Shown here: in pieces, positions 11,679-36,980 of the stretch | Layout of the letters: each line of letters starts with the position of its first letter | How positions within the stretch are numbered: the stretch's first letter is position 1 | Assembly: GCA_002715725.1 (NCBI GenBank) | Contig: PAZU01000042.1 | Coordinates: 1-36,980 of the forward strand | Direction of reading: 5' to 3' | DNA: 36,980 nt | Source of the DNA: Methanobacteriota archaeon | GTDB taxonomy: Archaea > Thermoplasmatota > Poseidoniia > Poseidoniales > Poseidoniaceae | Translations under genes and position numbers: made by a program | The notes under the pieces: model-generated | What the model was told of the DNA's origin: nothing | The model's input: only the letters and a program-made list of their open reading frames with translations | The model's database searches: none

Positions 11679-12827
11679 ATGGCAGGAGAAGTAACACCTC
11701 AAGGAGAAGGCGCAAGGTCGCTACATCTTCGTCAATTGAGGATGCAATGGCAAATTGTGACTCTGCAGGTATTAGCGACCCTTGCTCTGGTGTGGATGTA
11801 TCTTGAAGTCGTATCCACCTATGTTGTAGGCAGCATTGATCACACCCAATTATTCGAAACTCTAGAAACAGGACTGGGTACTGAACTACCTTTGGCCGAC
11901 TGGCTAACCGGCAGTGGAAGTGATGGCTTAGCCCGGTTCTATGTTCCAATGGGTCTTGGCCTAGGATTGGGAGGCGGAATGGCAATTATGGCATTCCAAA
12001 CTCCTAAGTTCCAACAGAGAGTCAAACTTGGATTCATTATCACAATGATCGTTTTACTAGCTGGACGATTCACTCTAGGATACGTTTGGCAACTTGTCGG
12101 TGACGGATGGAGTGCCCCCGATACAGATGTATTGCAACTACTCGAATGGCCATTATTGATGATGCTGTCATTCATTATTCTGACATTCTATCTACTACCG
12201 ATAATCACTGGAACTAAGGGGATTTGGGGGCTATCGAGAAGAGGAGTTGCTTGGTCGATCGGATTCACTCTGCTATTCCTCGGGGTTCATGCAATCCTTA
12301 CATTCCCTCTAATTAGAGGGCAACTTGGTAGTTACGGTTCTCAATTAACTACGCTAGAAATTATTGTTTCAGAGCCGACTGTATTTGGCCTGGTAACTGC
12401 AGAACAATTCTCACTAATCCTAATTGCATGTTTGATGATGGTTTTCCAAGAGTCAGCGTTTGGAGTAATCCGCCAGTTGGAATACGCATATCGCTTACCT
12501 GAGTCTTGCAAGAGAGACCCTGAGTACGTAGCTCAAATGGATAACCTTCTGAATGGACACATTAAACACACTGCGATTTTCCTTTCGCTCACAGTCGTTG
12601 CAACGACCATCGCATTGGGCTTCCACTCTATACTACTCGACTGGGTAAGTGGAATTACGGGTTCCCAGTGGGCTTCGCAAGTAGGTGAATCAATCGAATT
12701 AACCCTAACTTATGGATTGGTAATCTCTGCGCTTCTATTCCTTGGAATTATGGCATTACTACGCTTCGTAGTACCTTGGCAAAGAGTATGGGGTCTAATC
12801 GAGTCTTCATTTACTCCTAGAGAGTAA
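11679..12827 (+). CDS. Multi-spanning membrane protein, third gene of the DUF58 operon
   Basis: I do not recognise a named family. The 382-aa protein shows about eight hydrophobic segments, near 26-50, 88-105, 115-139, 155-176, 190-210, 237-256, 297-317 and 341-361, with a glycine-rich GLGLGLGGG in the second. It begins 9 nt after the DUF58 stop with GAGGTGA 4 nt before the ATG, so it is part of the same operon. By position it may be the membrane partner of the DUF4350 and DUF58 proteins. Its TAA stop directly abuts the stop of the convergent small membrane protein, with no spacer. Confidence 0.75.
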   Translation: MAGEVTPQGEGARSLHLRQLRMQWQIVTLQVLATLALVWMYLEVVSTYVVGSIDHTQLFETLETGLGTELPLADWLTGSGSDGLARFYVPMGLGLGLGGGMAIMAFQTPKFQQRVKLGFIITMIVLLAGRFTLGYVWQLVGDGWSAPDTDVLQLLEWPLLMMLSFIILTFYLLPIITGTKGIWGLSRRGVAWSIGFTLLFLGVHAILTFPLIRGQLGSYGSQLTTLEIIVSEPTVFGLVTAEQFSLILIACLMMVFQESAFGVIRQLEYAYRLPESCKRDPEYVAQMDNLLNGHIKHTAIFLSLTVVATTIALGFHSILLDWVSGITGSQWASQVGESIELTLTYGLVISALLFLGIMALLRFVVPWQRVWGLIESSFTPRE

Positions 12828-13031
12828 TCACTTCGAATAGTTGAATTGGAACGCTCGTCCTATTCCTTCTGTCAATACCAAGACAACCAGGGGTATTCCA
12901 CATACCCAAGATAGAATGAGGCTCGCACCATCTAAGTGGTCTTGCATGAAAAATCCAGCATAGATTCCTAAAGAAACCAAGGCCAAGAATACAAGTTTTT
13001 CAATCCATAATGGATAGTAAGAAGAACTCAT
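12828..13031 (-). CDS. Small two-helix membrane protein, 67 aa
   Basis: Family not recognised. Two hydrophobic segments at about 9-29 and 35-55 are separated by a short polar turn containing QDHLDG. A GAGGCGA ribosome site overlaps the stop of the upstream coiled-coil gene, and the gap between the two genes is only 9 nt, so it is translated as the last gene of the Roadblock/coiled-coil operon. It could be the membrane tether of that system; this is inference from position. The gene stop is back-to-back with that of the convergent 382-aa membrane protein. Confidence 0.7.
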   Translation of the reverse strand: MSSSYYPLWIEKLVFLALVSLGIYAGFFMQDHLDGASLILSWVCGIPLVVLVLTEGIGRAFQFNYSK

Positions 13032-13040
13032 TTAATCGCC

Positions 13041-16000
13041 TCAGAGATCTATACCGTCAAGAGAATCTTCGAGTTCATCCAAAGTTGAATCAGAAACTTC
13101 ACCAGATTCAACCGGGTCGGTTCTTCGAGCCCATCTCGCATCTAATCGTGCCAATTCTTCTTCCAGAGTTGCTCGTTCATCGTCTTGTGACGCTGCGGCT
13201 GATTCCTCAACTAATTCAGTAGGCTTTTCATCGACTGGAGTGGACAACTCCTCCCATTCTTCAGCGATATCACTAACTTCAACAGCAACCGCTACTTCTT
13301 CATCAATTAATTCGCCTTTCATTTGCTCTAGAACAATTTCATCGACTGGTGCTCTTTCACCTGCAGGAACAGAATCTCTCTCAAACGGAAGGATGCCATC
13401 TCTCTTGAAATCCCACAATGCTCCACGAACTTCGCCCTTGACGAAGCCACTTGCATCTAGTTGTGTCAGGAGTTCTTCTAGTGCACTAGTAGTGCCTTCA
13501 AGTTTGACTGAAGAGCCTGCGTCTCTCATATCTGCTTCAAGATGAATGTCATCCAGTGCTTTCTGAATCAATGCACGTGTTTCTCTTGCTAGCACTGGTA
13601 AGGACTCAGGCCTGCGGGTATTGCTCATCAATGCTTGAACCTGCTCAGATGGTGCCCCTAGTTTCTCAAGTTGCTCCAGTACATTTCTGATTCTTCGCAA
13701 CATGGTTACTGAACGGTCATAATCTTCAAGCAAGTTCTCCAAATCTAGAACAAGATTTGTCACCGTTTCACCAAGTTGGTGTTCTAATCTTTGCTGGACA
13801 GACCATCTTGCTAGGCCTCTCACAGCGCCCGCTGTCTGTGGGACTTGTCTCTCTAAGAGTGACATTACTTCATTAGAGAGTAAGTGACGAGGAGTCGTTG
13901 CAACATGGTCTACGCACCCTTGGATAACCTGTAGAGCGCGTTCTACTGCACGGTCAAGTAGAGATACCGAGTAACCAAGTGTTCTAGCGTGCTCTAACCT
14001 TTCCAATACTGGGCCTAGACCATCAAATTGAGCACCATCTTCAAGCAAAGCTTGTGCTAGAGGTTCTTCGGATAGTTTAGCGCGCAGCAACTCGGCTTCC
14101 TTGATGTCAGACAAGGCTTCCTCGTGTGCGATTGCTAACGCTTCTGCTTGGTCTAACAGGTTAGACAACTCGGCTTCTGCTTGACCTCTTCTAGCTCCTA
14201 AATCGCCTAGTTCTTTGAGCACTTGGCGGCGTTCATCCATCAATTCTCTCATTTCAGATTGAATCATTGATGCGCGGTTTTCTTGCTCGGTGAGCCTTAT
14301 TCTATCATCTTGAGTTCTTTCGCTGGCAACCTTGGACTCCGATTGTATCTGCTTTAGATTCAATTGGGCGTCACTGATTTTTGCTTCCAATTCTGATAAC
14401 TCGCCTTGAGCCCTACGATGACGGTCACGAGTTGCTTCAACTTGCTCTTCGATCATTCTTTGACGGCGTTGGTCATCTTCGATACGAGAACGAATACTTG
14501 CTAAAGTTGCAGAATGCGAATCTATATCACTCGACAATGCTGCTTCCTTAGTAGCCATCTCTTCAATCTGTGAAGATAATTCAGAACTCGCTTTGTTATC
14601 ACCAAGAATTCTTGCTAATTCTACTGCTCTCTCACTTAATTGGTGTTCAAGTTCGTTAACTCTCTTCGATAACCTATCGCTTCTAGATTCAGAGTTTTCA
14701 GCAGTGGCCTGAGCCGCGGATAAATCGAGTTGCAATTGATCGATTGTACGATTATATGAGGCGATTTTATCTTGCACATCAGAGGCTTGACGGTTCGCTT
14801 CATTCGCATTAACCTTAGCTGCACTCTCGGATTTTTGTGCCGATTCAAGTGCGACTTTAAGCGAAGCAACCTCGCCAATTGACTCTGACAACTTCAGTTC
14901 AGACTTTTCGAGTTTTCTTCTCAATCCATCATCGATTCCGGCTGAGGTTTCGATTGTTGCTAAACCTTCAGATGGGGTGGCAACTGTGATTGCAAATTCG
15001 AATCTAGTTCGCTCTTTACGCAACTTTTGAAGGCCGATTTCAAATCCATATAATTGCATCATCATCTGCTTAATCAAAGTTTGACGAGATTCCGAGCGAG
15101 TACGTGTAGTTGCTAATTCGTCACAGAATTGTGCTAGATTGAAATCGATTACATTTCCTGATTCGGGCCCTAGAATAGTTCCGACTGGTAGTCTGTGTAG
15201 AGCCAAAACCCTTCGAGATTCACAAAGTGAATTCGCTGCTTCGGCAAGTTTGGTCTTGCCTGGTGCTTGCATAGCCACAGGTACACCCTTGACTAAAGCA
15301 ACACGGATTGCTTTCGAGGATTTTCCAGCGGTTAGATGTCCGGTGAGTCCTTCATCGACTGCACTAGTTAGCATAGAGAGTACTGCATCTGTTCCGCCAC
15401 GTCCTTCTCTAACCACATGTCCATCAGTTAGAGCCTCGCCATGTGAGCCCATAGCATCTATTTGACCATCCATCAATGCAGCTATTTGACTAATTAAACG
15501 GCCGTGATCGACATCAGCTTCAGTCCAAATTGCAAGAGCAACATCTCCGGCTTCAGCCAATAGTAGGGAGCCATCTCCGGTATGCAAAGTCCAGTGGCCT
15601 GCGCCATCTAAGCCTAAATCGCTAGCCATTGCTTTTCTTCCAGCCAATGTTTCTCCTACTTGGGCTGCAAGTTTGTCAGCACTGGAAGGAAGGTCTCCTG
15701 CATCATCGATTAACATTCCAGAATCTACTGCGATTCCTCCACGTACCTCAGGACGTTGAACTAGATTAGCGAGAACTGCAGAAAGGTCTCTGGATAGTAA
15801 GCGTTCAAGTGAATCACCTGCACCAAGTAGCCCTCTCATGTCAGCGCTGTGCTCAAATGCCTCAGGAACAATCTCAGCTACAGAACCTAGAGCAGACTGT
15901 GTCCAAGCTCTAGCAACTAATCGGTGCTGGTCGATTTCTAATGACTCAAGGCGATCCTTTGCCGCTTTACCACACAGCAAAACCTTGCCCTTAGCAGGTT

Positions 16001-16166: not shown

Positions 16167-16171
16167 GTCCA

Positions 16172-16513: not shown

Positions 16514-16720
16514 GCGCGCTCAAATGGGTGCAGGTTGAAAACGGCTTCAAGAAGTTTGGCTTTTCAAAACGCCCGTAGGGCGGTTTGTAGGGTTGTTTGA
16601 TTTTGCCAACTAGTTTTTTGGTAATCGTAAATTCCTATTTGTAAATTCCTATTGGAAATTTGATTTTTGAATTGAAAAATTCTACCGTTGACATCAAGCC
16701 TAGAACCTCGTCGAATAATC
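16514..16720. promoter_or_regulatory. Divergent intergenic region with hairpin and tandem repeat
   Basis: A 207-bp gap between the divergent Roadblock gene and tRNA thiolase gene. It contains a hairpin CGCCC-GTA-GGGCG at 16570-16582, extendable with one bulge into the flanking AAAAC/GGTTT, and a tandem duplication of the 14-mer GTAAATTCCTATT(T/G) at 16627-16654 in an A+T-rich stretch. Both genes probably have promoters here, but no single TATA box stands out. Confidence 0.5.
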
Positions 16721-17680
16721 ATGGCCGGCCTTTTTGATGTCCCGAGTTGCGATAAGTGTCGCAATCCGGCTATTCATCACCAAGTTTACTCTGGCAGAAT
16801 GATGTGCGGAGCACACCTTGCTGAAAGCGTCAGGAAGAAAGCTTCCAAGGCATTAAGAGAACAATTAATCCTGCCAAAAGGAGAACATACTACAATCCTC
16901 GTAGCGATCTCTGGAGGTAAAGATTCGGCAGTGCTACTAGAAAGGCTTCACGAGAATTTGGGGAAGCGTCGTGATGTGACACTTGTTGGAGGATGTGTGG
17001 ATGAAGGGATTGAAGGATATAGGCCACCATCTTTAGAATGCGCAAGACAACTTTGTGAAGATTTAGGAATAAGGTTCGAAACCGTATCTTACCCCGAACT
17101 TGGATTCAAAGAAATGGACGATGTTGTAGACAAGATAGTTGAACTTGAAGAAAAAAAGGCACCGTGCTCATATTGTGGCGTTTTTAGACGGCAAGGAATC
17201 AATCATCTTGCGGACAGAGTCAATGCCGATGTAATTGCCTTGGGTCACAATTTAGACGACATGGCTCAAACCATCATGATGAACATGCAAAACGGCGACT
17301 TGGAAAGAACGCTAAGACTAGCGCCCCATACCAGTACTCCGCTGAAAGGAATGGCTCCCCGGATCGTGCCATTACGCTGGATTCCTGAGCAAGAAATTCA
17401 CCTATATGCTATTCATAAAAATTTGCCCATTCATCACGAGGAGTGCCCTCACGGAGAAGGGGCTTTACGATTCAGACATCGAGAAACTATCGCAATGATG
17501 GAATCTGACGTACCAGGGACTCGGCATGGTTTACTACGAATGGCGGATGACCTGAAGAGATTGCATGCTTCTGCGGGTGGAAAATTCAACACCATTAGCC
17601 CAATTAATTGCCCAGAATGTGGACAAGTGTGTAGCGGTAAAATTTGCAAGGCTTGCGAAATGAAAAAACGAATGCAGTAA
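16721..17680 (+). CDS. tRNA 2-thiouridine synthase, NcsA/TtuA (TtcA-like) family
   Basis: A PP-loop ATPase that adenylates a tRNA uridine and replaces its 2-oxygen with sulfur. It has 319 aa from the ATG at 16721. The N-terminal zinc finger uses Cys10, Cys13, Cys29 and His32. The PP-loop SGGKDS is at 64-69. Cys149, Cys152 (PCSYC) and Cys242 (EECPHG) match the three-cysteine 4Fe-4S site of TtuA/NcsA proteins. The C-terminal zinc finger has Cys297, 300, 309 and 312. In a mesophile the wobble U34 role (NcsA/Ncs6) is more likely than the thermophile-specific U54 role (TtuA), but sequence alone does not separate them. An upstream TTG at 16688 is less likely. The stop abuts the stop of the convergent gene with no spacer. 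Confidence 0.88.
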   Translation: MAGLFDVPSCDKCRNPAIHHQVYSGRMMCGAHLAESVRKKASKALREQLILPKGEHTTILVAISGGKDSAVLLERLHENLGKRRDVTLVGGCVDEGIEGYRPPSLECARQLCEDLGIRFETVSYPELGFKEMDDVVDKIVELEEKKAPCSYCGVFRRQGINHLADRVNADVIALGHNLDDMAQTIMMNMQNGDLERTLRLAPHTSTPLKGMAPRIVPLRWIPEQEIHLYAIHKNLPIHHEECPHGEGALRFRHRETIAMMESDVPGTRHGLLRMADDLKRLHASAGGKFNTISPINCPECGQVCSGKICKACEMKKRMQ

Positions 17681-19426
17681 TCAAACCCTGCGCCTTAGTC
17701 TTTCCATGAAACCATCTGCGAGACCGAGAGATTCCAATGTTTCATCTACTCTACCAGCCTTGTGTGCATCACCTGCTAAAGCAATTGCTTCTTCAACAGA
17801 TCTTCTATCTTCATCATCGGCCTTGATTCCACTAGCGTCACATTGATTCCTCAAAATTTTCCATTCTTCTAGGACATATTCCAACAATTCATTGGCTTCG
17901 CCGCTCGCCTTACCTTCTACATCCAAGTCCTTCGTCAACCGCTCTAGAAGTGTTGCTGCATGAGACCATTCAAGTGAATCAGCAGATTCTTCGATTTCTA
18001 ATAATCGCGTATCCCAATCTGCAGAATCTTCTCTTTCTGACCATCGAGAAATCAAGTGTACTTTCTGCCTGAGTGCTCTACGTACATCATCCATCGCCTC
18101 TCTTTCCGCGTTGATTTCTCTAACAATTCCATCGGCGAGGCCTTTAGCTTGTGCATGGTTACCTTGCTCCAATTCGGCTTCAGCATTATCGAGTCTTTCC
18201 TCCAGTAAATCTTTGTTGATTCCATCGGCAGATTTCAATTGTCTTGCAGCATCTTTGACAGATTTTTCAGCAACAATCATCGCATCGCCAGATGCCTCTA
18301 ATTGATCAGGAATAACCATTGCAAATTCGTATGCTTTTTGCGGCTTTTCGGAGTTGAGTTTTTTCTTTGCGTCAGCCAAAATTTCTTCCAATGCTTCTTC
18401 CTTATGCTTTGATGAAGATAACAAGGAAGATGCTTCTCTAATCGCTTCTTCGGCTTTCTGCCACCATTCGATTATTTCGCTAGCTCTTTGCTTAGCTTGT
18501 CTGAACAAAGCCTCCCCTTCTCGCAAACTACCCAATTCGACTTCTCTTTTACCCATGTCCCATGCTTTCCGAGGGCGTTTTGCGATTGGAGCGATTTCTT
18601 CTGCCGATTCTACAGCCTTGAGAGAATCTGCTTTAATTTCTTCAACATCGCCAGCCAAAGATAGCGACCTCTCGATGTCCTCTTCAGCTTCATCTAGAAG
18701 CCTCATACCCCAATCTGGCTCTCGATGACCTTCTTCTCTAGCGGTCATAATCAGGCTTGCTGCTTGATCTACAGCAGAACCATTGCTCCGAAGATGCAGG
18801 ATTCTTTCTTCCATTGAATTTAATCGTGAATTGAATTCTTTTCTCAATCCGCGTTGGTCATCCTTACCAAACCAATCCGTTACGATCAATATTAATCCAA
18901 CCACGCAAAATCCAATCTGGATAAACGAAGAGTTGTCTTCAAATTTGATTGTGGTGAGCAAAGATGCTGCAAGTACAAGACCGAGTAAACCCATCAATGC
19001 ACGGAATTTCATAACAGCAATATCTCCTTCCAATATTGCCCGACTAGTCAAAAACAAGACGGCTGATGTCGATAACAAGATTACCATTCCTAGCATCTGT
19101 GAAATATTACCTTCCAGTTGTGATAATGCTACAACGGCTAATGGAAGCCATGCTATTGTGGATATAATCCCAATTCTTGACCTAGATTTCTTATCCATCA
19201 AACCGAGGTCTTGAACAAAAACGCCCCAGGCGATGATGATTAAAGCGTACTTCAAATCTGAAGTAATCGAGTCACCACTCATTCCTGATTTCAGAGACGG
19301 CCATGCTAACCAAACAGCCGCTCCGAGCATTGCCATTGCTGATACTCCGGCTAATTTTTCCACTCTATCCAAACGGCTTTTGGCCTCCGCCTTAATCGCT
19401 TCATCCAAATTAACAAAGCCATCCAT
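17681..19426 (-). CDS. Six-helix membrane protein with long helical cytoplasmic tail, 581 aa
   Basis: Family not recognised. Residues 1-190 hold about six membrane helices (near 25-45, 58-76, 86-103, 111-131, 141-157 and 168-186). The remaining 390 residues are almost wholly helical, rich in Glu, Ala, Lys and Arg, and probably form coiled-coil or helical-repeat structure on the cytoplasmic side. AAGGTGGG lies 6 nt before the ATG. It begins 25 nt after the stop of the large secreted protein gene, so the two are likely one operon. The arrangement (membrane block plus helical tail) resembles that of the 844-aa protein at 23477-26011 although they are not obviously homologous. A role in envelope organisation is a guess. 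Confidence 0.7.
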   Translation of the reverse strand: MDGFVNLDEAIKAEAKSRLDRVEKLAGVSAMAMLGAAVWLAWPSLKSGMSGDSITSDLKYALIIIAWGVFVQDLGLMDKKSRSRIGIISTIAWLPLAVVALSQLEGNISQMLGMVILLSTSAVLFLTSRAILEGDIAVMKFRALMGLLGLVLAASLLTTIKFEDNSSFIQIGFCVVGLILIVTDWFGKDDQRGLRKEFNSRLNSMEERILHLRSNGSAVDQAASLIMTAREEGHREPDWGMRLLDEAEEDIERSLSLAGDVEEIKADSLKAVESAEEIAPIAKRPRKAWDMGKREVELGSLREGEALFRQAKQRASEIIEWWQKAEEAIREASSLLSSSKHKEEALEEILADAKKKLNSEKPQKAYEFAMVIPDQLEASGDAMIVAEKSVKDAARQLKSADGINKDLLEERLDNAEAELEQGNHAQAKGLADGIVREINAEREAMDDVRRALRQKVHLISRWSEREDSADWDTRLLEIEESADSLEWSHAATLLERLTKDLDVEGKASGEANELLEYVLEEWKILRNQCDASGIKADDEDRRSVEEAIALAGDAHKAGRVDETLESLGLADGFMERLRRRV

Positions 19427-19451
19427 GAACTACCCACCTTTATCGAACATA

Positions 19452-21953
19452 TCAGAATCGCGGTTCGTTGCGTGACCTTGCCCACACTACGGCCAAAATT
19501 CCTAAACCAACAACGATGACTAATTCTAAGGCACCAAATCCAATTCCTGAATTATATTCACTTGTAGAGTGTTTCACCACTGTCTGATTTGAATCATCTA
19601 GATATGACAACTCTACTGAGAATGTTTCAAACCAATCTAAATCAACTTTCATCGAGACTATCGAAGTCGAGGTTTGAGAATAAGTGGAAGGGGCGACAAT
19701 AGAATCTACACAAGTGTCATCGCTACAAAGGATGAATTCTGTACTGCTTGCTCCATTATTTTGTATTGTAATCCAAAATTGATTCATCCCTGGCTCTACC
19801 TCAGTTGCAGAGGATTTGATTTCGATTACCTCGAGATCTCTAGCTATTGGCGGAGCGATTGCAACACCGATTGTGCTACCTGCCAAATTACCTGCTTCAT
19901 CCATTCCAGCGATATTGATTTCATGATAGCCGATTCCCAATTCAGGCAACTCCCAATACTGTATTTCAGGCCATGATAAATCCGTATATTCATCGTTTAA
20001 ATTATTAATTGAAAATTTAATTTTGTCAATTGAAGAATGGTCGTCAAATGTCTGGGTTAAATTCAGCCTCAACTTATCGCCGGGACGAGAAACTGAAGTC
20101 ACGGCTTTCCACCGGCCGTCCTCTTCCAAAGATTCTACTGTAGCAATAACAACTGGACCAGAGTTATCGAGCAAGCGAATCGTCCAATTACCTGTAGAGG
20201 AATGGCCAACATCATCGCTTACTTCTGCAGACAACCAATACTCGATTTGATTACGTGCTTTGTGCCTCTCACTGATGTTGTCATTGATTGAATTAACCTC
20301 TGAATTAACACTAAAGCTGGTTTGCAGAACATCCCCGGTGTACCACCAATCATCGGATTTGTTACTAGTCCAATACACTCTCAAATTGTCATCATGATCG
20401 TCTCCAACCATCAAGTCCCAGTTGAAGAAGCCCGGAGTTATTTCTTGAACATCATTACTGGCGTTAATCCATGGGCTTCCACCGTCTAAGATGAAACTGG
20501 TAGAGAATGTCTCAGATAAGCCGCCTTCATCTACACAGGAGACCATGACAGGCAAGAATGAATCTTGCTCAAATGCTGAAAGATTGACGCTTAAATTGTT
20601 GGTTAGGCCTGAAATATTCCATTCACACTCGTGAACCGAGAGCGGTGCATCATCTATGATTATGTCGAAATTATAGGATTCATTGTCCCAAGGTAAAGCA
20701 TAATCTTCAGACATAGAAAGAATAGGAGCAGTATTGGGACCTAGAGATATCGTATAGAAACCGGAGACAGAGGTTGCATCTCTTGTTAACGTGAAGTCTG
20801 CTGGAGTGCCGTCAATCCATTCCCCTAGTGGGCTAGAAAGATACTGCCATTCTCCATTAGTTACAAAATTTAGTGGCGTTATTTGCCTCAAATCATTGTA
20901 GAATGGAACTTCTAACCTCATCAAACTGATATGTGAACGATCCGCACTTATGGTTGCCGTTTCGTTCCACCCCCAGTAACCATTGGCAAAGTCTATTTGT
21001 GCCTGAACACTAAGTCCGGAAAACAATACCGTTGAGTCATCAATAATGCAACACAGTGCTTCCTTTCCATTGAGATATTCTATGCTCTCAAGCAGAGATT
21101 CTAATTGTGATATATCGCCGCCCAAAAATCGATCAACTTGGCTTTCAATTCCTGCCGCAACACCAGGAATAAACGGCAACCCTATCCCGTTGTTGAAACT
21201 ATGCGATGCATTCCAAACTCCCACAATATCTTCATTCGGAGTCAGATTAGAAGTAAATTCGAGACTAGCTTGTCCATTGATTAAAGAGGAATTCAATTGT
21301 TCTGTAATCCATTGGCTGGTTGGAGGCCAAATGGAGTTTCCAAGTGGCATTCCTTGTTGATATACACGAGCGCTCCAGCCACCGCCAAATTCGCCTACGG
21401 TCAAATTTTGATTCTCCCACTCAACAATATTACCAGAACCAGTATGTATGGCTTTTACAAGCACATCATCGCTATAATTTCCATGCAAATCATATGCTGT
21501 AGTCGCATTTGGAATAATAATCGATGATTCCCCATACCTTATGTCTGAGCCACCTTCACCAATCAATACAATTGGGATTCCGTTTGGAGCGTCTACGAAT
21601 CCATCATCTATCGAAACTTCCCAAGTGCTGCCTAATGCCTGCATTGTATGTGCGCCTTGAACTGTGAAGAGATCTTCAATGATAGGATGAGCTTGCAAAA
21701 CGACCGTTGTCTGAGAGGAGGAGATTGGAGGATGCCACATTACAACATATCCTTCACAGGTAGCACTCGCTTGATACATGCCACCACTAGGGCTGTCGAC
21801 TATGCTTCCAGTCCAGGGTTCTGTCAAAACAATGTCGCAATCTGCAATTGGGTTGCCCAATGGGTCTTCTACTTCTACTGTCCAAGACTCTGATTCTTCT
21901 GCCCAAACCGCAGGCATGAGAAGTAGAAATACGAGCAACAAAACCCTGCGCAT
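19452..21953 (-). CDS. Large secreted, membrane-anchored protein with CARDB-like domain
   Basis: An extracellular protein of 833 aa from the ATG at 21953. That start gives a textbook signal peptide MRRVLLLVFLLLMPAVWA; the open frame continues upstream to 22037 with alternatives at 21980 and others. The mature part is beta-rich with many Trp, Ser, Asn and N-glycosylation sequons. It begins with a carboxypeptidase-regulatory-like fold (VEDPLGNPIADCDIVL) and ends with a CARDB-like Ig domain (APPIARDLEVIEIKSSATEV, then FWITIQNNGAS). The C-terminus has a single helix and the basic tail RSRNEPRF, which anchors it in the membrane. Surface binding or an S-layer-associated role is plausible. It is divergent from pyrB and upstream of the six-helix membrane protein. 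Confidence 0.75.
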   Translation of the reverse strand: MRRVLLLVFLLLMPAVWAEESESWTVEVEDPLGNPIADCDIVLTEPWTGSIVDSPSGGMYQASATCEGYVVMWHPPISSSQTTVVLQAHPIIEDLFTVQGAHTMQALGSTWEVSIDDGFVDAPNGIPIVLIGEGGSDIRYGESSIIIPNATTAYDLHGNYSDDVLVKAIHTGSGNIVEWENQNLTVGEFGGGWSARVYQQGMPLGNSIWPPTSQWITEQLNSSLINGQASLEFTSNLTPNEDIVGVWNASHSFNNGIGLPFIPGVAAGIESQVDRFLGGDISQLESLLESIEYLNGKEALCCIIDDSTVLFSGLSVQAQIDFANGYWGWNETATISADRSHISLMRLEVPFYNDLRQITPLNFVTNGEWQYLSSPLGEWIDGTPADFTLTRDATSVSGFYTISLGPNTAPILSMSEDYALPWDNESYNFDIIIDDAPLSVHECEWNISGLTNNLSVNLSAFEQDSFLPVMVSCVDEGGLSETFSTSFILDGGSPWINASNDVQEITPGFFNWDLMVGDDHDDNLRVYWTSNKSDDWWYTGDVLQTSFSVNSEVNSINDNISERHKARNQIEYWLSAEVSDDVGHSSTGNWTIRLLDNSGPVVIATVESLEEDGRWKAVTSVSRPGDKLRLNLTQTFDDHSSIDKIKFSINNLNDEYTDLSWPEIQYWELPELGIGYHEINIAGMDEAGNLAGSTIGVAIAPPIARDLEVIEIKSSATEVEPGMNQFWITIQNNGASSTEFILCSDDTCVDSIVAPSTYSQTSTSIVSMKVDLDWFETFSVELSYLDDSNQTVVKHSTSEYNSGIGFGALELVIVVGLGILAVVWARSRNEPRF

Positions 21954-22052
21954 ACCACTTAGCAGAAATTCATACCTCATCAAGAAAGCGGATTTTCGCG
22001 CCCATATGTTCATGGTCGGGTTTGGCACAAGACCCACGGAAGGGGGAGTGAC

Positions 22053-23003
22053 ATGCCCGGATTAATCACCATGGATGACCTAACGAATGATGAGATTATT
22101 TCTATTCTAGATGATGCTGAAAGGCTGCTTCCTGTGGCTCGTGGCGAGATATACTTACCACTGCTACAGGGTAGAATCCTAGGCAACCTTTTCTTTGAAC
22201 CATCAACTAGAACTCGGATGTCTTTTGAGACCGCAATGAAGCGATTAGGAGGAGATGTTGTCAATCTTGGAGATGTGAAAACCTCCTCTGTTGTCAAGGG
22301 TGAAACCCTATTTGACACCATCCAAATGGTCGATGGATATACCGATATTATCGCTATGAGGCACCCTAGACAAGGAGCCGCGCAATATGCTTGTGATAGT
22401 GCGAAGGTCCCAATTTTGAATGGCGGCGATGGCGCTGGCCATCATCCGACTCAAACAATGCTTGACCTGTTCACCATTAGACAATCCCACGGCACGCTTG
22501 AGGGATTAAATGTAGTCCTAGCAGGAGACCTAAGATATGGCCGTACTGTTCACTCGCTATCGCATGCTCTAGTTAGGTTCGGATGCAATGTCACATTTGC
22601 ATCTCCTGAAAGTTTACGAATGCCGGAAGAAATTGTTGCTGATTTGAAAGTACATGGTGCTGAAGTTGTCGAAACCGATGACTTGCTAGGCCAAATTAAC
22701 AGCGCTGATGTAATTTACATGACTAGAATCCAGAAAGAGAGATTCCCTGACGAAGACGAATATGCAAAAGTTGCAGGAGCATACAAATTACAAGCTAGTG
22801 ACTTGGATGGAGCGAAGGCTGAGATGATTATCATGCATCCTCTACCGAGAGTAAATGAAATTCATCCATCAGTAGATTCCACCAGGCATGCCAGATATTT
22901 CGAACAGGCTTTCAATGGAGTCGTTGCTAGAATGGCACTAATGTGTAGGTTATTGGGCGTCGATGTACCTGCAGCAATCGGTACAGAAGGAGGGATTCAA
23001 TGA
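22053..23003 (+). CDS. pyrB: Aspartate carbamoyltransferase catalytic subunit
   Basis: Catalyses carbamoyl phosphate plus aspartate to carbamoyl aspartate, the first committed step of pyrimidine synthesis, as trimers in the cytoplasm. It has 316 aa, slightly longer than the usual 305-310. Visible active-site elements: Ser51-Thr-Arg-Thr-Arg55 (phosphate loop FFEPSTRTR), Lys82 in VVKGET, Arg103-His104 in MRHPRQG, His131 in GDGAGHHPTQ, Arg161 and Arg164 in GDLRYGRT, and HPLPR near the end. Position 130 is His where Gln is usual. A GGAGTGA-like ribosome site precedes the ATG. It overlaps pyrI by four bases (ATGA), so the holoenzyme subunits are co-translated. Confidence 0.97.
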   Translation: MPGLITMDDLTNDEIISILDDAERLLPVARGEIYLPLLQGRILGNLFFEPSTRTRMSFETAMKRLGGDVVNLGDVKTSSVVKGETLFDTIQMVDGYTDIIAMRHPRQGAAQYACDSAKVPILNGGDGAGHHPTQTMLDLFTIRQSHGTLEGLNVVLAGDLRYGRTVHSLSHALVRFGCNVTFASPESLRMPEEIVADLKVHGAEVVETDDLLGQINSADVIYMTRIQKERFPDEDEYAKVAGAYKLQASDLDGAKAEMIIMHPLPRVNEIHPSVDSTRHARYFEQAFNGVVARMALMCRLLGVDVPAAIGTEGGIQ

Positions 23004-23476
23004 GCCAAGAAGCAAACATGAGAAGAGTTACTGCAATCAAAAATGGTACTGTTATTGACCATGTTCCTGCTGGTAAAGCTCTATCTGTTCTGAAGATGCT
23101 AGGTATCGGTGGCGATATGTCAAACCCAGTATCTCTTGTAATGAATGTCCCCTCCAAAAAAATGGGTGGGAAGGATATCATCAAGGTTGAAGATCGTGAA
23201 TTAACTCAGCATGAGTTAGACCGTTTGGCCCTTGTTGCTCCTGATGCATCCGTTGCGATTATTCGCGCATATTCTGTTGCTGAGAAATTAGACATCAACT
23301 TGACCGATGAAGTGGTCAATGTAGCAAGATGTACTTTCTCCAATTGTATCACTGAAAATCCCCGTGAGCCTTTGCCACATAGGCTAATCGTAACAAAAAG
23401 AGACCCACTTGAACTTCGTTGCAGATATTGTGGTAAAACACAAGACATTGAGGCACTAGTGGACAATCTAATTTGA
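23000..23476 (+). CDS. pyrI: Aspartate carbamoyltransferase regulatory subunit
   Basis: Binds nucleotide effectors (CTP, UTP and ATP in characterised enzymes) and links catalytic trimers through a zinc domain. It has 158 aa, a normal length. The allosteric N-terminal domain holds RRVTAIKNGTVIDHVPAGKA and the segment with LGIGGDMSNPVSLVMNVPSK. The zinc domain has Cys111, Cys116, Cys141 and Cys144 (ARCTFSNCIT, RCRYCGKT). GGAGGG lies 5 nt before the ATG within the end of pyrB, with ATGA stop/start overlap. The TGA stop directly abuts the stop of the convergent 844-aa gene. Confidence 0.97.
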   Translation: MSQEANMRRVTAIKNGTVIDHVPAGKALSVLKMLGIGGDMSNPVSLVMNVPSKKMGGKDIIKVEDRELTQHELDRLALVAPDASVAIIRAYSVAEKLDINLTDEVVNVARCTFSNCITENPREPLPHRLIVTKRDPLELRCRYCGKTQDIEALVDNLI

Positions 23477-26011
23477 TTACAGGTCAAACAAATCGGCCTT
23501 TTCACAAGCGCGGAAATTGATCCATCCAGGTAATCCTAAGTCGATTGGCACTCCACCAACTGTAGTGATTAATCCAGTCATAATCAGGTGATTTGCAAGT
23601 GGTGGATTGGTCCAATCAACTTTCTTCCAACCCTTCTTCCCAAGATTCTCGATTGTGGTTTCACGGCGTGAAGTCCATGCATTCGCATTCCATGCATGTA
23701 TTTTCATTGCATTAGTAGAGATACTTGGCGCAGCCACTACATTATGTGATTCTTGCCAATTTTTCTCCCAATCCCCATCCATGGTATCAGCCCAAATTAA
23801 TCCGGTCTTTTCTTGGACAGGAATATCCATCTCACCAAGTGTTGCGAGATGTATTGCCAATCTTCTTAGGTGGGGATGACGAGGATGTTTCTTCATGGTT
23901 TTCTTTACGATGTTTATTGCACTTGCATTCATTCCTCTATCAAGATAGAGAAGAGCCCTAGCAGTTTGGCCATGCGGCCATTCTTCCATGTCGATTTCAT
24001 TCTTTTTGGCCCAAGCTTCCAACTTATCCAATGCAATATCGGATTGAGACCATAGTCTGAATCTTGCTATATCTCCAAGAACAAATAATTTTGAAGCAGG
24101 TTTGTATTTCCAAGCAATATTGCTACCGGGTATACCTTCTTTGAATCTCTTCAATAAGTCGATATTTCTCTTTGTAAGCGAATCCAATCGCAATAATGGC
24201 CTAACCGTATCTGGTAACTTTACAGAAGGATCTAAAACGGATGTAATCCACTTTAGTCGAGCGGATTCAATATCTTCGTCTGCTAGTAAATCTAGTCGAG
24301 GAATCGCTTCAGATATGTCTCTTTGTGCGAGGGAGGCAGCTGCTAAAACAACTCTAGCAATTTCTGCTGTACGCCCTGCTCTCAGTGCTAGGAAGGAGAG
24401 TGCCACCTGTTCGGCTTGGTCCCATCTCCCTAAGCCCATCAGCATCTCCATACTGGCTTCGGTTCGCCTGACTAGGGACAAGCCTTCGATACTCTCTTCG
24501 CCATGATCCTCATACAACAATTCCATTTGTTCCATTGCTTTAGACCAATTGTCCGATGAAATCATCTGACGGAAATCTTCACCTTTACGGTAAATCATCT
24601 TTTCAATTGCTTCTAACTGGATTCTATTTTGGTTAGCCATTGCATCAAAGGAAATGTCGTCTAAATGCTGCCCTGTTCTCCTAGATAGAGCCCAGATTCC
24701 TAAGAAAACAACTTGCCCACCCGATGCTAACATCCATGTCATTTCTTCTAAGGCATCTTTCCTGATAACTTGACAAATGGAATCTTGCCAAGAACCGCAT
24801 TGTTGGCCTTGAGGGAGATACTGTGAATCCCAAAACGTCAACATAGCCAAAGCTAGTAACAACATAGATTGGCCTGCGAATCCTGTGAAACAGAAATTCA
24901 AGACATTGGCTTGTTGAGATTTCTCACTTCGCAATAATCGTGAGTCTGCAAGTCTGATTCCGCCTTTTCCAGACACATCAGCGATATCTAGGAATAAAAT
25001 TCTTGCAACTTCGTATACGAAAAGGAAACCTACGATTGCAACGTTAAGCAGGAGGAATAGGAGAACAATTGTGACTAATGGAACCCTAATTCCCGGTTCT
25101 GAAATGTTTGCAAATAATTCGATTGCATAGAATCCAAGTACTCCTCCTTCTTCCATAATCGTTGACTGAGGGCGGTATTCAGGTAAATCAAGCACTCTCT
25201 GAGTATGCTCAAACATCGTTGGATCAATCGCCAGTAAAATGAGCGAAACAAATGTGTTGAACGCGATGAATGGCATCGCTGCTGTATTTAACCAAACAAG
25301 AGTGGAGATGAATTGTTTTCGAGCAGGGGGTTTGTATGGATAGAAAGCCGATGGCTCACCTTTGGATAACTGTCTGCTAGATTCTTTCAGAGCGGTCCAT
25401 GATGAACCCATGACTCTTCCATAAGCGATGAATCCAGGGGCGAATGCTAAACAACCTATCAAAGCCAATTTCCTATCAAAATCCACTTCTACAAAACCCA
25501 TAATGAACCAGAGCATGATTAGTGAAGTAAACCACAAAATCGTAATTGTTACTCCGACTCCATTTCTAAATGTACTAGCACCTTGGAGAGTAGCTCGCTT
25601 GCCCCCTGTTCTAGTAATGATTTGGGTGCTCATGGAGACGCCGGTTGAGATCATTGCTGGTACGATAATCAAAATTAGTGCAACGGCTAAGGAAATCTGA
25701 TGAAGTCCTTCTGAGAGTTCCATCTGATAGAGTAGCCATTCCATTCCTAGTAAAATTGCGCCAGTTAATGCCATGACATATACTGTCAGCCCATTACGCA
25801 TACCGGGCGTCTTCAACAGTTCTTTTGCCTCATTTTTGTTATCTGTAACTGTATGAACTTCGTATCTCCTCGGACCTGTAGGAAATGCTACTTGCAATCC
25901 AGAAAGGCCTCTTGGAATAACATACTCTTGGAATAGATATGCAATGAAAGCGGATAAAGAAATGGCAAAAATGGCCATAATATCGAATTCACTTACGAGT
26001 TCGATTCCCAT
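23477..26011 (-). CDS. Large membrane protein with C-terminal helical-repeat region, 844 aa
   Basis: Family not recognised. The first 440 residues contain about eight or more hydrophobic segments (for example 12-29, 76-95, 104-125 and 150-172) with soluble loops. From about 460 to 800 the protein is helical with a repeating pattern suggestive of TPR-like repeats (for example QAEQVALSFLALRAGRTAEI). It starts 9 nt after the thrS stop with GAGG, overlapping that stop region, 7 nt before the ATG, so it is in an operon with thrS; I see no obvious functional link to tRNA charging. An internal ATG at residue 12 directly before the first helix is an alternative start. The stop abuts that of pyrI. Confidence 0.72.
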   Translation of the reverse strand: MGIELVSEFDIMAIFAISLSAFIAYLFQEYVIPRGLSGLQVAFPTGPRRYEVHTVTDNKNEAKELLKTPGMRNGLTVYVMALTGAILLGMEWLLYQMELSEGLHQISLAVALILIIVPAMISTGVSMSTQIITRTGGKRATLQGASTFRNGVGVTITILWFTSLIMLWFIMGFVEVDFDRKLALIGCLAFAPGFIAYGRVMGSSWTALKESSRQLSKGEPSAFYPYKPPARKQFISTLVWLNTAAMPFIAFNTFVSLILLAIDPTMFEHTQRVLDLPEYRPQSTIMEEGGVLGFYAIELFANISEPGIRVPLVTIVLLFLLLNVAIVGFLFVYEVARILFLDIADVSGKGGIRLADSRLLRSEKSQQANVLNFCFTGFAGQSMLLLALAMLTFWDSQYLPQGQQCGSWQDSICQVIRKDALEEMTWMLASGGQVVFLGIWALSRRTGQHLDDISFDAMANQNRIQLEAIEKMIYRKGEDFRQMISSDNWSKAMEQMELLYEDHGEESIEGLSLVRRTEASMEMLMGLGRWDQAEQVALSFLALRAGRTAEIARVVLAAASLAQRDISEAIPRLDLLADEDIESARLKWITSVLDPSVKLPDTVRPLLRLDSLTKRNIDLLKRFKEGIPGSNIAWKYKPASKLFVLGDIARFRLWSQSDIALDKLEAWAKKNEIDMEEWPHGQTARALLYLDRGMNASAINIVKKTMKKHPRHPHLRRLAIHLATLGEMDIPVQEKTGLIWADTMDGDWEKNWQESHNVVAAPSISTNAMKIHAWNANAWTSRRETTIENLGKKGWKKVDWTNPPLANHLIMTGLITTVGGVPIDLGLPGWINFRACEKADLFDL

Positions 26012-28468: not shown

Positions 28469-29572
28469 ATGCGCCTAGCGGTCATCGTCAATCCAGATGC
28501 CGGCCTTGGAGGAAGGCTCGGTTTCAAAGGAAGTGATGGTAGAGCAGCCGAAGCACGTGCAGCAGGAGCCCAAGACAGGGCGGGTCCTAGAATGCGACAG
28601 TGCTTGGAGAAACTTTCAGAATTGGCAAGAGAACCTATTGAAATCGTTGCATGGGATGGTAGAATGGGTGGAGATTGGATCCCTGGCGAATATACCTCCA
28701 CAGGAGTTACTCCAGAATTTACTGACGCTAGCTCAACCTCTGATTTCATCAAAGCACATTCTCCTGATTTATTCCTTTATGCAGGTGGTGACGGTACTAC
28801 ACGAGATATTGTCGAGGCATTGGATGATAGGAACATCCCACTGGTAGGAGTTCCTGGTGGAGTGAAGATGCACAGCGGTTGCTTTGCTACCACTCCTAAG
28901 GCCGCTGCTGAAGTGGTTTGGTCATTCGTAACTGGGGACTTGATGGTTGCTAGAACTGAAGTCATGGATTTAGACGAAGAGGTCTACAGGAAAGGCGAGT
29001 GGAAAGTTCGGATGTATGGTGAAGCATTCACCCCAGCAAGTCCTAGATGGATGCAGGGAGCTAAAGAGCAAGTTCAGAGAGAATCCGAAGAAGAGACCCT
29101 TGAGGCAATGGCAATGCATGTTGCTAGCCTAATCGAAGATGATCCAGATTTGATGATTGTCTGGGGTAGTGGTGGAACACTGAGGCAAATTTGTCTAGAA
29201 AACGGATTTGATTCAACACTACTCGGCATCGACATACAGCATAGAGGTCAAATGTATCCTGACCTAAATGAGGAAGGTTTGCTTGAACATATAGCCACCC
29301 ATGATGGTAAAATCCTGTTACTACTTTCTCCTATGGGCGGCCAAGGATTCCTAATCGGCAGAGGTAACTTGCAACTTTCACCAGATGTTCTGCGTGCGAT
29401 TGGAACTGACAATATTCTCGGCATTGCCACTCCTGCTAAACTTCTGGGGCTTAATGAATTGAGAATCGATACCGGTGACGAAAACCTAGATTCTGAAATT
29501 CGTGCCAAGAAATATCTCAAGGTGCTACAAGGTTACAGAACTACCCGAGTCATCAGAGTGGCAGAGGATTAG
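28469..29572 (+). CDS. NAD kinase-like protein of the archaeal COG3199 type
   Basis: A diacylglycerol/NAD-kinase-fold protein, 367 aa from the ATG at 28469. That start puts the family's N-terminal signature at the beginning (MRLAVIVNPDAGLGGRLGFK); ATG 28442 or TTG 28439 would only add an unconserved leader. The nucleotide-binding GGDGT is at 106-110. The length exceeds bacterial PpnK (about 290) and matches the COG3199 group of predicted polyphosphate/ATP-dependent NAD kinases, which carry an extra C-terminal region. The likely reaction is NAD to NADP, but some members (AcoX-like) act on other substrates. It is a single gene, convergent with pyrG. Confidence 0.82.
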   Translation: MRLAVIVNPDAGLGGRLGFKGSDGRAAEARAAGAQDRAGPRMRQCLEKLSELAREPIEIVAWDGRMGGDWIPGEYTSTGVTPEFTDASSTSDFIKAHSPDLFLYAGGDGTTRDIVEALDDRNIPLVGVPGGVKMHSGCFATTPKAAAEVVWSFVTGDLMVARTEVMDLDEEVYRKGEWKVRMYGEAFTPASPRWMQGAKEQVQRESEEETLEAMAMHVASLIEDDPDLMIVWGSGGTLRQICLENGFDSTLLGIDIQHRGQMYPDLNEEGLLEHIATHDGKILLLLSPMGGQGFLIGRGNLQLSPDVLRAIGTDNILGIATPAKLLGLNELRIDTGDENLDSEIRAKKYLKVLQGYRTTRVIRVAED

Positions 29573-29608
29573 ACGAAGGCGAATGGAAAGGGTGTTCGGC
29601 CTACACAA

Positions 29609-29620
29609 AGGGTACCCTCT
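29609..29620. repeat. 12-mer shared with the left-edge inverted repeat
   Basis: AGGGTACCCTCT, containing the 10-bp palindrome AGGGTACCCT, lies in the 55-bp gap between the convergent NAD kinase-like gene and pyrG. The identical 12-mer is at 16-27 inside the left inverted repeat. It may be a degenerate member of the same repeat family. Confidence 0.4.
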
Positions 29621-29627
29621 GATTGGA

Positions 29628-31244
29628 TCAAACAGTTTCCCCAGAAGCTGCCTTTAACAGTCCCAAGAATGGGGGACTTGGCTTCTCTGGCCTACTCTTG
29701 AATTCTGGATGGTATTGAACACCAACGTAGTATGGATGCCCCCTGAGTTCGAAAATCTCACAGCGTTGGCCTGTCTCATCCTTTCCAACATAGACAAGTC
29801 CTGCGCTCTCAATTTTCTCAATGAGGTCTGGATTTACTTCGTAGCGATGACGGTGGCGCTCATCTACCTGAGAGACCCCCCCATACAGGCGCTTAGTCAT
29901 ACAATCGTCAACTTGGAAAATTGTCGGCCTGCTTCCCAATCGCATTGTTCCACCTAGGTGTGTCTTGGAAATTTCTGGCATGAAGACTACAGCAGGATTA
30001 GGAGTGTTCTCATCAAATTCTGTGGAATTAGCTCCTTCTAGGTCGAGAACGTTTCGGCAGAATTCTATGGTTGCAACCTGTAGTCCAAGACAAATTCCGA
30101 GGTAGGGAACTTGATTGGTTCTAGCGTACTCGGCGGCGAGAATCTTTCCTTCAATGCCTCGAACACCGAACCCTCCTGGAACTAGGATTCCATGTGCATT
30201 TCTCAGCACATCCCAGTCTGAATGGGTTGTGTCTACTAGATTTTCAGCCTCGATCCAATCGATTACCAGCGTACGGTTTACAGCATATGACGCGTGTTCT
30301 AGACCTTTAATCACTGAAAGGTAGGAATCTGATAATCCAGTGTACTTTCCAACCATTGCAATGTGGACATCATCGCCAAGGTTGTCTACACGGTCAGCCA
30401 TATCTTCCCAGCGGCTCATCAGATCGGTAGCATTGCAGTCAATGTCTAGGGCATCACATATTCCTTGGTCACGTAGTAGAAGTGGAACACGGTAGATATT
30501 GGATACGTCATGAGCACTCATTACCGCATTTGGTGATACATGACAGAACGCTGCAAGTTTCTCTCTGGTCTCTTTTGCCAATGGTGCTTCAGCACGGCAG
30601 ACTATCACATCTGGAGTAATTCCAAGACCTCGTAATTCCTTGACTGTATGTTGGGTTGGCTTGGTTTTCTGTTCCCCAACAGGACCCATTACTGGAACTA
30701 GTGAAACGTGCACGAAACAGATGTTTTCTCGTCCTACTCTGAACTGGAACTGACGCAACGCTTCAATGAAAGGAGATGATTCAATATCTCCGACAGTTCC
30801 TCCGAGTTCGATAACACAGGCTTCAGGTGTTTCACCACTACCATCTGCTGATACTGCGGAGATGCGCTCAATCCAATCTTGAATTGCATCGGTAATGTGA
30901 GGAATAACCTGGACTGTCTTTCCAAGGTAATCTCCACGACGTTCGGCCTCGATTACCTGCGAGTAGATCTTGCCTGTAGTGATATTGTTGTCTTTGTATA
31001 AGTCAAGCCCACAGAAGCGCTCATAGTTTCCAAGGTCGAGGTCGGCTTCGCCACCATCATCGAGAACGAATACTTCACCATGCTCAAATGGTGACATTGT
31101 TCCTGCATCGCTGTTTAGATAAGGGTCTATTTTGACTGCAGTGACTCTCAGTCCAGCGCTTTTTAGAAGAACTCCGATGCTAGATGCGGTAACACCTTTG
31201 CCAAGTCCGCTGAGGACGCCTCCTGAGACAACGACATATTTCAT
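29628..31244 (-). CDS. pyrG: CTP synthase
   Basis: Converts UTP to CTP using ATP and glutamine, the last step of de novo pyrimidine nucleotide synthesis. It has 538 aa from the ATG at 31244, matching the family N-terminus [10 protein letters not shown]; an in-frame ATG at 31289 would add a proline/arginine-rich leader and is rejected. The synthetase domain shows [10 protein letters not shown] (8-17), [18 protein letters not shown] (40-57) and [12 protein letters not shown]. The class I glutaminase domain has the Cys385-His512-Glu514 triad ([14 protein letters not shown]). A 6-bp-stem hairpin (31262-31277) lies 17 nt before the start. Confidence 0.97.
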
Positions 31245-31261
31245 GTCCTTCAACGGGCTTT

Positions 31262-31277: not shown

Positions 31278-31289
31278 CCCTTTCAACAT

Positions 31290-34051: not shown

Positions 34052-34084
34052 CGACCTTGCGACCCGATAACCTACCTTGAACAT

Positions 34085-34868: not shown

Positions 34869-34895
34869 AATCGGAAATTTTACGGATGTGTAATA

Positions 34896-36782
34896 ATGGC
34901 TAAAAGTAGTGTAATTGGAATAGACCTGGGAACAACCAACTCCTGTGTTGCAACGATTGAGAATGGTGAAGCTGTAGTTATTGCGAACGCAGAAGGAGCA
35001 AGAACAACTCCTTCTGTAGTAGCATTCTCCAAAGATGGTGGAGAAAGAATGGTGGGAGTCACCGCTAAGCGTCAAGCAGTTACCAATCACGAGAGAACCA
35101 TGATCTCTGTAAAGAGACAGATGGGTACTGATTGGAAAACCAAAGTAGACGACTCAGAATATACTCCTCAGGAGGTCTCTGCATTCATTCTACAGAAACT
35201 AAAGACCGATGCAGAAGCATATCTAGGTACAACTGTAAAACAGGCTGTAATCACCTGTCCTGCATATTTCACAGATGCTCAGAGGAAGGCAACCAAGGAT
35301 GCCGGGCGTATCGCTGGACTTGAAGTTTTGAGAATCATCAACGAGCCAACTGCCGCTGCTCTAGCATACGGAGTTGACAAGGAAGAAGACCAAACCATCC
35401 TTGTTTACGACCTTGGAGGGGGTACTTTCGATGTATCAGTTCTCGAGATTTACGATGTAGATGGTCAACCTCAAATCGAAGTAAAGGCTACTGCTGGTAA
35501 CAACAAACTTGGTGGAGATGACTTCGACGAGGTTCTAATCGACTACCTAGTTACAGAGTACAAGAAATCCTCAGGTATTGACCTTGCAAAAGATGTTCAA
35601 GCAATGAGCCGTCTCAAAGAGGCTGCTGAAAAAGCAAAAATCGAGTTATCCGGAACTGGCCAATCTCAGGTAAACCTACCATTCATCACTATGAAAGATG
35701 GTCAACCAGAACACCTTGACATCACTGTTTCTCGTGCTAAATTCGAGGAACTTATCGCTCCACTTGTTGAGAAGACAATGAAGCCTACCAGGCAAGCGAT
35801 GAAGGATGCTGGACTATCAAAAGGTGAAGTCGACAAGGTAATCCTAGTCGGTGGTTCAACCCGCGTTCCTGCAGTTCAAACCGCTATCGAGAAAGAAACT
35901 GGTAAGTCGCCATTCAAGGGAATCAACCCTGATGAAGCAGTGGCTATGGGTGCTGCATTACAAGCTGGAATTATCGCCGGAGACGAAGGTGTATCTGACA
36001 TTCTATTGCTGGATGTTACTCCACTAACCCTCGGAATCGAAACTCTGGGAGGAGTGACTACTACAATGATCGAGCGAAACACGACTATTCCAAGTCGTCG
36101 CTCCGAAGTATTCTCAACTGCAAGTGATAACCAACCTGCGGTAGAAATCCACGTACTACAGGGTGAGAGAGAATTCGCTAAGGACAATGTAAGTCTTGGC
36201 CAATTCCACCTTATGGGAATCCCACCTGCACCTCGTGGTATGCCACAAATCGAAGTAACATTCGATATCGATGCTAACGGAATCGTAAACGTATCTGCCA
36301 AAGATAAGGGAACAGGCAAGGAGCAATCTATCAAGATTGAATCTGATACCTCTCTCTCCGAAGATGATATACAGGCAAAGATTGCTGAGGCTGAAGAGTT
36401 TGCTGAGGCTGATAAGCGCCTGAAGGCACAAGTCGAAATGAGAAACATGGCTGACCAAATCGTCTACCAAACACGCAGAACAATCGACGAGGCTGGCGAG
36501 AAACTCAGTGACGAAGACAAGGAGCCAGTTCTTTCCAAGGTTGACGAACTTGAAGCATTACTACAAAACGAAGAAGGCGTTGCTAAGGAACTTGATGAAA
36601 TCGATGAGGCCGCAGTGCAAGCCAAGGTCAAGGAAATCGAGGAAGGAATGCACGCAATCTCCGCTAAGTTGTACGAGGCTGCTGCTGCTGAAATGGCTGA
36701 GCAAGAAGAATCTGGGGCTGAACCGTCTGATGATGGCGTCGTGGATGCTGACTTCGAAGTAGTCGATGAAGACGAAGACTGA
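34896..36782 (+). CDS. dnaK: Hsp70 chaperone DnaK
   Basis: An ATP-dependent chaperone that binds exposed hydrophobic peptides in the cytoplasm. It has 628 aa. The ATPase domain shows [11 protein letters not shown] near the N-terminus, the [12 protein letters not shown] phosphate loop and [11 protein letters not shown]. The interdomain linker region [19 protein letters not shown] and the substrate domain follow, then a lid and the acidic tail ending EVVDEDED. The N-terminal quadrant lacks the roughly 24-residue insert of proteobacterial DnaK, as in Gram-positive and archaeal homologs, which is usually read as an old acquisition from bacteria. No grpE or dnaJ is visible in the window. It is probably co-transcribed with the sHsp-like gene. 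The TGA stop abuts the stop of the convergent partial gene, forming TGATCA. Confidence 0.98.
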
Positions 36783-36980
36783 TCACCAGATAAACGGTAT
36801 TGCGCTGAAAATCAGCATAACTATTGGCACGACTATTGCTTCTGTAGTAGAGCGCAAGCCGGCGATTAGTGATAACTCGGTTCCTCTGTGAAGGTGCACT
36901 TGCATACCGATGTCTTTGTTGCCTCGAACAACGAGTAATGAATTAGGAATTGTAGTATCTATTCCTTCCTCCCTCTCATC
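36783..36980 (-). CDS. Partial membrane protein, C-terminal 65 residues
   Basis: An open frame on the minus strand enters from beyond the right edge and ends at TGA (36785-36783) directly against the dnaK stop. The visible part reads DEREEGIDTTIPNSLLVVRG at its start, continues through a segment with MQVHLHRGTELSLIAGL, and ends with a hydrophobic stretch of about 20 residues (TEAIVVPIVMLIFSAIPFIW) that is likely a membrane helix at the very C-terminus. No stop interrupts all 65 codons, and codon use resembles the neighbours. The N-terminal portion and function are unknown. Confidence 0.6.
   Translation of the reverse strand, partial: DEREEGIDTTIPNSLLVVRGNKDIGMQVHLHRGTELSLIAGLRSTTEAIVVPIVMLIFSAIPFIW

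Follow-up and report, generated by a model that had tools for sequence, protein, structure and literature searches.

Convergent gene ends and invertible segments in other systems

Near-overlapping convergent gene pairs, together with a stop-extension model for them, were reportedly described by Kingsford, Delcher and Salzberg in 2007. The gene pairs analysed here resemble these in that their convergent ends overlap or nearly do so, with offsets shaped by the possible positions of the stop codons. They differ from the overlaps that the stop-extension model explains (e.g. -4), as the main class here lies at exactly 0 and is about three times commoner than -4; with 46 pairs at 0 and 15 at -4 in the four near species defined below, stop extension alone fails to explain the offsets.

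A second comparison is with inversions bounded by gene ends and with invertible DNA segments, in which a segment flips between two fixed boundaries. One segment of the present locus (17681-23476) likewise has fixed boundaries and its genes stay whole. Unlike in such systems, the flips are seen between species, and no recombinase gene was found in or next to the segment, nor were any long inverted repeats.

The four-base convergent overlaps CTAA, TTAA, CTAG and TTAG are described in PMC2174442, and 15 of 172 convergent pairs in the four near species are overlaps of this kind (TTAA 9, CTAA 3, TTAG 2, CTAG 1). Such overlaps exclude TGA, whereas TGA occurs in almost all of the hexamers formed at zero spacing here (42 of 46 pairs). 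No peak at zero spacing among convergent pairs is described in the accessible parts of PMC2716372, PMC10666635, PMC3887535, PMC4161906 and PMC2174442, and may be described by Kingsford et al. (2007); we do not claim it as unreported.

Genomes, samples and gene calls

The window is the whole stretch of 36,980 nucleotides analysed, i.e. contig C42 in full, from a genome of 1.94 Mb in 57 contigs (estimated completeness 76%) whose closest named relatives are Poseidoniales (marine group II) genomes. Its genes include those for CDC48, thermosome, CTP synthase, DnaK, a TtuA-like protein and pyrBI. We sampled 804 kb (41%) of this genome (L002-L021, L052-L071 and the window) and 158-400 kb of each comparison genome, calling genes with a home-made caller based on a fifth-order coding model, a later version of which was trained on six same-genus genomes. 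For E. coli K-12 we used the annotated genes of four 50-kb stretches, giving 28 convergent pairs after exclusion of yedL/fliE, which has pseudogenes between its members. The term "four near species" refers to the window's own genome (G000), G025, G018 and G022, and "two more distant species" to G020 and G002 of the same genus; this split was chosen post hoc from the counts (TtuA identity 86-88% versus 75-78%).

Four junctions with touching stop codons

The features under study are as follows.

11679-12827, plus strand: 382-aa protein, left gene of junction 1; no Pfam match
12825-12830: junction 1, TAATCA; TAA of 11679-12827(+) abuts TGA of 12828-13031(-)
12828-13031, minus strand: 67-aa conserved small protein, right gene of junction 1; identified by conservation in relatives
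16688-17680, plus strand: PP-loop tRNA 2-thiolation protein (TtuA-like), left gene of junction 2; Pfam ATP_bind_3
17678-17683: junction 2, TAATCA; TAA of 16688-17680(+) abuts TGA of 17681-19426(-)
17681-19426, minus strand: 581-aa protein, right gene of junction 2; no Pfam match
17681-23476: 5.8-kb segment encoding 581 aa, 861 aa, pyrB and pyrI; runs from junction 2 to junction 3, in the opposite orientation to most relatives
23000-23476, plus strand: pyrI, aspartate carbamoyltransferase regulatory chain, left gene of junction 3; Pfam
23474-23479: junction 3, TGATTA; TGA of pyrI abuts TAA of 23477-26011(-)
23477-26011, minus strand: 844-aa protein, right gene of junction 3; no Pfam match
34896-36782, plus strand: dnaK (Hsp70), left gene of junction 4; Pfam
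36780-36785: junction 4, TGATCA; TGA of dnaK abuts TGA of 36783-36980(-)
36783-36980, minus strand: 3' end of a gene open at the contig end, right of junction 4; about 600 aa in most relatives

The preliminary description of the window had reported four exactly abutting pairs of opposing stops, and we confirmed all of them: each hexamer is at its place between long or conserved opposing frames, i.e. the 3' ends lie within a few bases of each other and both genes are real. The least obvious frame is the 67-aa one at junction 1, which scores no better than non-coding sequence in our caller; a stop-free match to it is present in all but one of the 25 genomes G000-G024 and in 25 of the 41 searched overall. 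At junction 4 the minus-strand frame is the end of a longer gene, with open frames of 395-703 aa spanning the query at the corresponding places of eight relatives. Hit coordinates put this gene at zero spacing to DnaK in seven of nine genomes with adjacent hits, the exceptions being G005 (one base more) and G001 (overlapping). In the TtuA-like protein of junction 2, the Pfam family TtuA_LIM_N scores slightly below its cut-off.

Two further convergent pairs had been described as having a spacer. That at 29572/29628 is unaffected by our analysis, whereas that at 784/904 does not stand, as it rests on an ORF (209-784) that is not conserved, with no match in the 25 other genomes searched. The sound count for the window is therefore four zero junctions among five convergent pairs, which makes it richer in such pairs than its genome (binomial P 0.02). 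ORF 209-784 (191 aa) does have some coding score, and is either an orphan or spurious.

Spacing of convergent genes across genomes

In the sample of the window's own genome, 27 of 95 convergent pairs had a spacing of 0, none had 1-4 and seven had -4, using the model trained on six genomes; with the first coding model, the zero count was 27 of 89, and with the window left out it was 25 of 90. Other allowed offsets within 40 bases held 0.55 pairs each, against which 27 pairs at zero has a Poisson P of about 4e-36. The zero spacing noted in the preliminary description is borne out by the genome-wide distribution as tabulated on the sample, which shows an excess at 0 in this genome and its near relatives, i.e. 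the opposite of a distribution with no such excess. The pattern of touching stops is real and strong in this genome.

The four near species together had 46 of 172 pairs at zero (G025 10/30, G018 5/25, G022 4/22), a total in which orthologous junctions common to several species are not independent data points. The two more distant species had 3 of 50 (G020 2/28, G002 1/22), a contrast with a P of 0.0016 that is post hoc. Four genomes of other genera had 16 of 111: G036 (5/43), G033 (3/26) and G035 (5/18) from the same family, and G046 (3/24) from another. The shape of the distribution also differed, with counts at 0, 1, 2 and 3 of 46, 6, 1 and 1 in the near four (eight pairs at 1-4) versus 16, 7, 8 and 5 in the other genera, i.e. 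a plateau with a modest peak. Overlaps of -1 to -3 were empty in all ten Poseidoniales genomes sampled. E. coli K-12 had none of its 28 pairs at zero and three at -4. An exact-zero spike with near-empty next spacings provides a clean ruler for deletion pressure in uncultured archaea.

Inversion of one segment and conservation of spacing

In 60 of 74 loci the convergent partner of TtuA is pyrI, and the 844-aa gene is mostly opposed by the 581-aa gene where the far side could be read. The window and most of its genus show the alternative pairing, TtuA with the 581-aa gene and pyrI with the 844-aa gene. As partners are swapped at both ends, the whole segment 17681-23476 is inverted, with its ends at junctions 2 and 3; the segment is therefore present in both orientations, with the same ends, in different species. 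A few distant loci (L214, L228 and L230) are arranged otherwise. A three-protein tree of the 74 loci gives two changes of orientation. Three changes result from a TtuA tree of 91 rows that includes more species of the genus, and G002 there seems to have flipped back within the inverted species; this tree came from a short search with long branches flagged, and support for the place of G002 is only 85. Judging from these trees, the segment appears to have flipped two or three times in the family. A scheme of exactly two inversions with G020 and G002 basal was rejected, since G002 is nested in the larger TtuA tree.

Zero spacing is widely conserved at these junctions. Of the 11 named same-genus loci L152-L162, all but L162 (-21) have junction 1 at zero, with the hexamers TAATCA (3), TGATTA (5) and TAATTA (2). 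Junction 2 has zero spacing in 16 of the 21 same-genus loci (TAATCA 13, TGATCA 2, TGATTA 1), the exceptions being G013 (+2), G004 (-4), G020 (-4), G005 (-18) and G002, which has pyrI as the partner at -4. The values for G004, G020 and G005 led us to drop the idea that inverted segments never end in overlaps. Junction 3 is at zero in the window and in all ten inverted named loci L152-L161 (TGATTA 8, TAATCA 2, TGATCA 1). In the other orientation, the junction between the 581- and 844-aa genes is at zero in 25 of the 43 loci with a measured value. Spacing that is kept while the letters change would be expected if insertions and deletions were excluded, rather than if a site were being read.

Composition of the hexamers

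Among the 27 zero junctions of the own-genome sample, 23 read TAATCA or TGATTA, three TAATTA and one TGATCA, and none contains TAG. The 46 zero pairs of the four near species comprise 48 TAA and 44 TGA stops and no TAG, whereas the 15 pairs at -4 comprise TAA and TAG only. Mixed TAA/TGA pairs are more frequent than random pairing of the genome's own stops would give (P 0.0004 for at least 23). The genomic pool of the three hexamers (681:167:196) raises the mixed share expected to 65%, against 23/27 observed (P 0.02).

GATC (observed/expected 0.27-0.60) is more depleted than any other four-base palindrome in each of the six same-genus samples, with ratios of 0.27-0.43 in the four near genomes (own genome 0.43, G025 0.27). 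TGATCA is disfavoured because it contains this depleted tetramer. It is common at the zero junctions of genomes with higher GC and weaker GATC depletion, and commoner at those of G036 (ratio 0.58). The hexamer is therefore mostly TAATCA, as a TGA-rich genome uses TAG little and TGA facing TGA would make TGATCA with its GATC. Stop usage and GATC avoidance largely, but not fully, account for the hexamer bias. No D12-class adenine methylase was found in the own genome despite the strong depletion of GATC, nor was a Dam-type methylase special to the group. TAATCA is not enriched genome-wide (observed/expected 0.89 in the own genome), and 33 junctions showed no conserved motif outside the six bases (maximum 0.43 bits per column). 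The A content at the gene end is slightly raised at zero pairs (P 0.048 versus tandem genes). Separately, all eight tandem pairs called at spacing 0 in the own-genome sample read TAAATG, and none has TGA or TAG.

Erosion of spacers as the best-supported explanation

We consider it probable, on balance, that the erosion of spacers ends in touching stops, the smallest arrangement without overlap. Opposing stops cannot overlap by one, two or three bases, as the last base of one (A or G) would have to serve as the first base of the other (read as T or C). Spacing 0 is for this reason the tightest non-overlapping arrangement, and the next tighter one, -4, requires TAA or TAG on both sides. Small deletions would shorten convergent spacers, where no promoter or ribosome-binding site is needed. 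Once spacing had reached 0, nearly any further deletion would hit a stop codon and only one site would be left for a neutral insertion, which is why the zero state would last, with the stops continuing to swap TAA and TGA while the spacing stays. The zero spike, the conserved spacing with swapping stops, the geometry and the depletion of GATC are all observed. The driver, be it deletion bias or selection for compactness, would act together with a cost of overlap and a tolerance of transcripts that enter the opposing gene. If transcripts have any 3' UTR, antisense read-through, another possibility raised in the preliminary description, must follow. Touching stops present a case in which transcription has to terminate within the gene opposite or antisense to it.

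We simulated the evolution of spacing by insertions, deletions and substitutions, in finite runs for which equilibrium is not established. With a cost of overlap and a deletion:insertion ratio of 10:1, the simulation gave 320 of 600 pairs at 0, 117 at 1-4 and 15 at -4. At 3:1 it gave 176 of 600 at 0 and 193 at 1-4, and at 1:1 only three at 0 and 11 at 1-4. The other genera (16 at 0 versus 22 at 1-4) resemble the 3:1 simulation, and the four near species (46 versus 8) are sharper than that at 10:1. Genome streamlining alone, one of the possibilities raised in the preliminary description, is accordingly the best supported of them, as no arrangement without overlap is tighter than zero, and combining deletion bias with a cost of overlap makes the simulated spacings spike there.

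Several results count against erosion alone. Without a cost of overlap, -4 exceeded 0 in the simulation in all eight settings. Simulated zero pairs hold many TAG hexamers, whereas none of the 54 stops at the genome's zero pairs is TAG (P 0.002), a scarcity to which avoidance of C at the +4 position may add. The excess of mixed hexamers over the genomic pool also counts against it. Zero is also not fixed, as the overlaps in three same-genus species at junction 2 show, and the model leaves the rise of the zero bias in the nearer species, compared with the two distant ones, unaccounted for. Extreme compaction, with an end state that is almost frozen, is nonetheless the best reading of the pattern.

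Alternative explanations

The hexamers could instead be boundaries of recombination, a reading that we regard as unlikely. Inverted copies (TAATCA ... TGATTA) would let a segment flip between convergent junctions with the four genes unharmed, and repeated flips would spread and keep zero spacing. It is similarly improbable that whole divergent operon modules flip at the central bases of T-R-A-T-Y-A, the products regaining two intact touching stops. If true, the recombination reading would explain both the rise of zero spacing in one clade and the uniform hexamer, and would tie gene-end geometry to genome rearrangement. It draws on the segment between junctions 2 and 3, which is inverted, ends at touching stops and changed orientation twice or three times depending on the tree; moreover, of the 11 loci in which junctions 2 and 3 both have zero spacing, eight carry hexamers there that are inverted copies of each other (the window, L152, L153, L155, L157, L158, L159 and L161). 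However, convergent junctions often swap partners, and do so no more at zero (20 of 53) than when overlapping (42 of 99) or with spacers of 1-60 (37 of 60). In L217-L219, where the segment inverted independently, both ends have spacers of 2 to 5, and six bases are short for homologous recombination. No dedicated recombinase was found nearby or confined to the lineage, and no Pfam recombinase among the window proteins scanned. The own genome (76% complete) has no serine recombinase and six of 41 relatives have one, while tyrosine recombinases occur in 35 of the 41, hence none is special to the group. An inversion between convergent junctions is, finally, simply the kind that breaks no gene. The recurrent inversion bounded by touching-stop junctions is nevertheless the most interesting lead.

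We think it very unlikely that a compact transcription terminator working in both directions lies in the hexamer or around it; the preliminary description had raised the hexamer as a compact bidirectional end. Beyond its place between two gene ends, the hexamer has in its favour a T content of 0.41 in the first six downstream bases at zero pairs, which is partly the opposing stop. Runs of at least five T within 60 downstream bases, however, occur at 9.8% of 92 gene ends at zero pairs, compared with 12% for spacers of 1-60, 13.5% for overlapping pairs, 19.7% for spacers above 60 and 12.3% for tandem genes with long spacers. No T-rich tract above background was thus seen downstream of both genes at zero pairs. 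Stop swaps freely alter the hexamer at fixed zero spacing, and the proposal also fares badly against the lack of both a motif beyond the six bases and a genome-wide enrichment of TAATCA.

We give an equally small chance to selection on the base after the stop, in which zero spacing without TAG would place both genes in a strong termination context, with T at +4. Among 540 gene ends followed by more than 20 bases, 192 have T at +4 and just 69 have C; zero pairs always have T there, and TAG, which would place C there, is absent. This is, however, a mild genome-wide preference for which any spacer starting with T would be equally good, and it may explain the absence of TAG instead of the spacing.

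That the touching stops are an artefact of gene calling or assembly is barely credible: the caller is home-made and the small ORF of junction 1 scores poorly, but the reading frame fixes the stops, and conservation in relatives, from independently assembled public records, confirms all four junctions, so that the orthologues already largely refute it.

At the convergent pair of the window that retains a spacer, NAD kinase faces CTP synthase across 55 bases (29572-29628). In G025, a 131-aa gene lies at zero spacing (TAATCA) to NAD kinase, pointing to a gene gained or lost where two stops touch.
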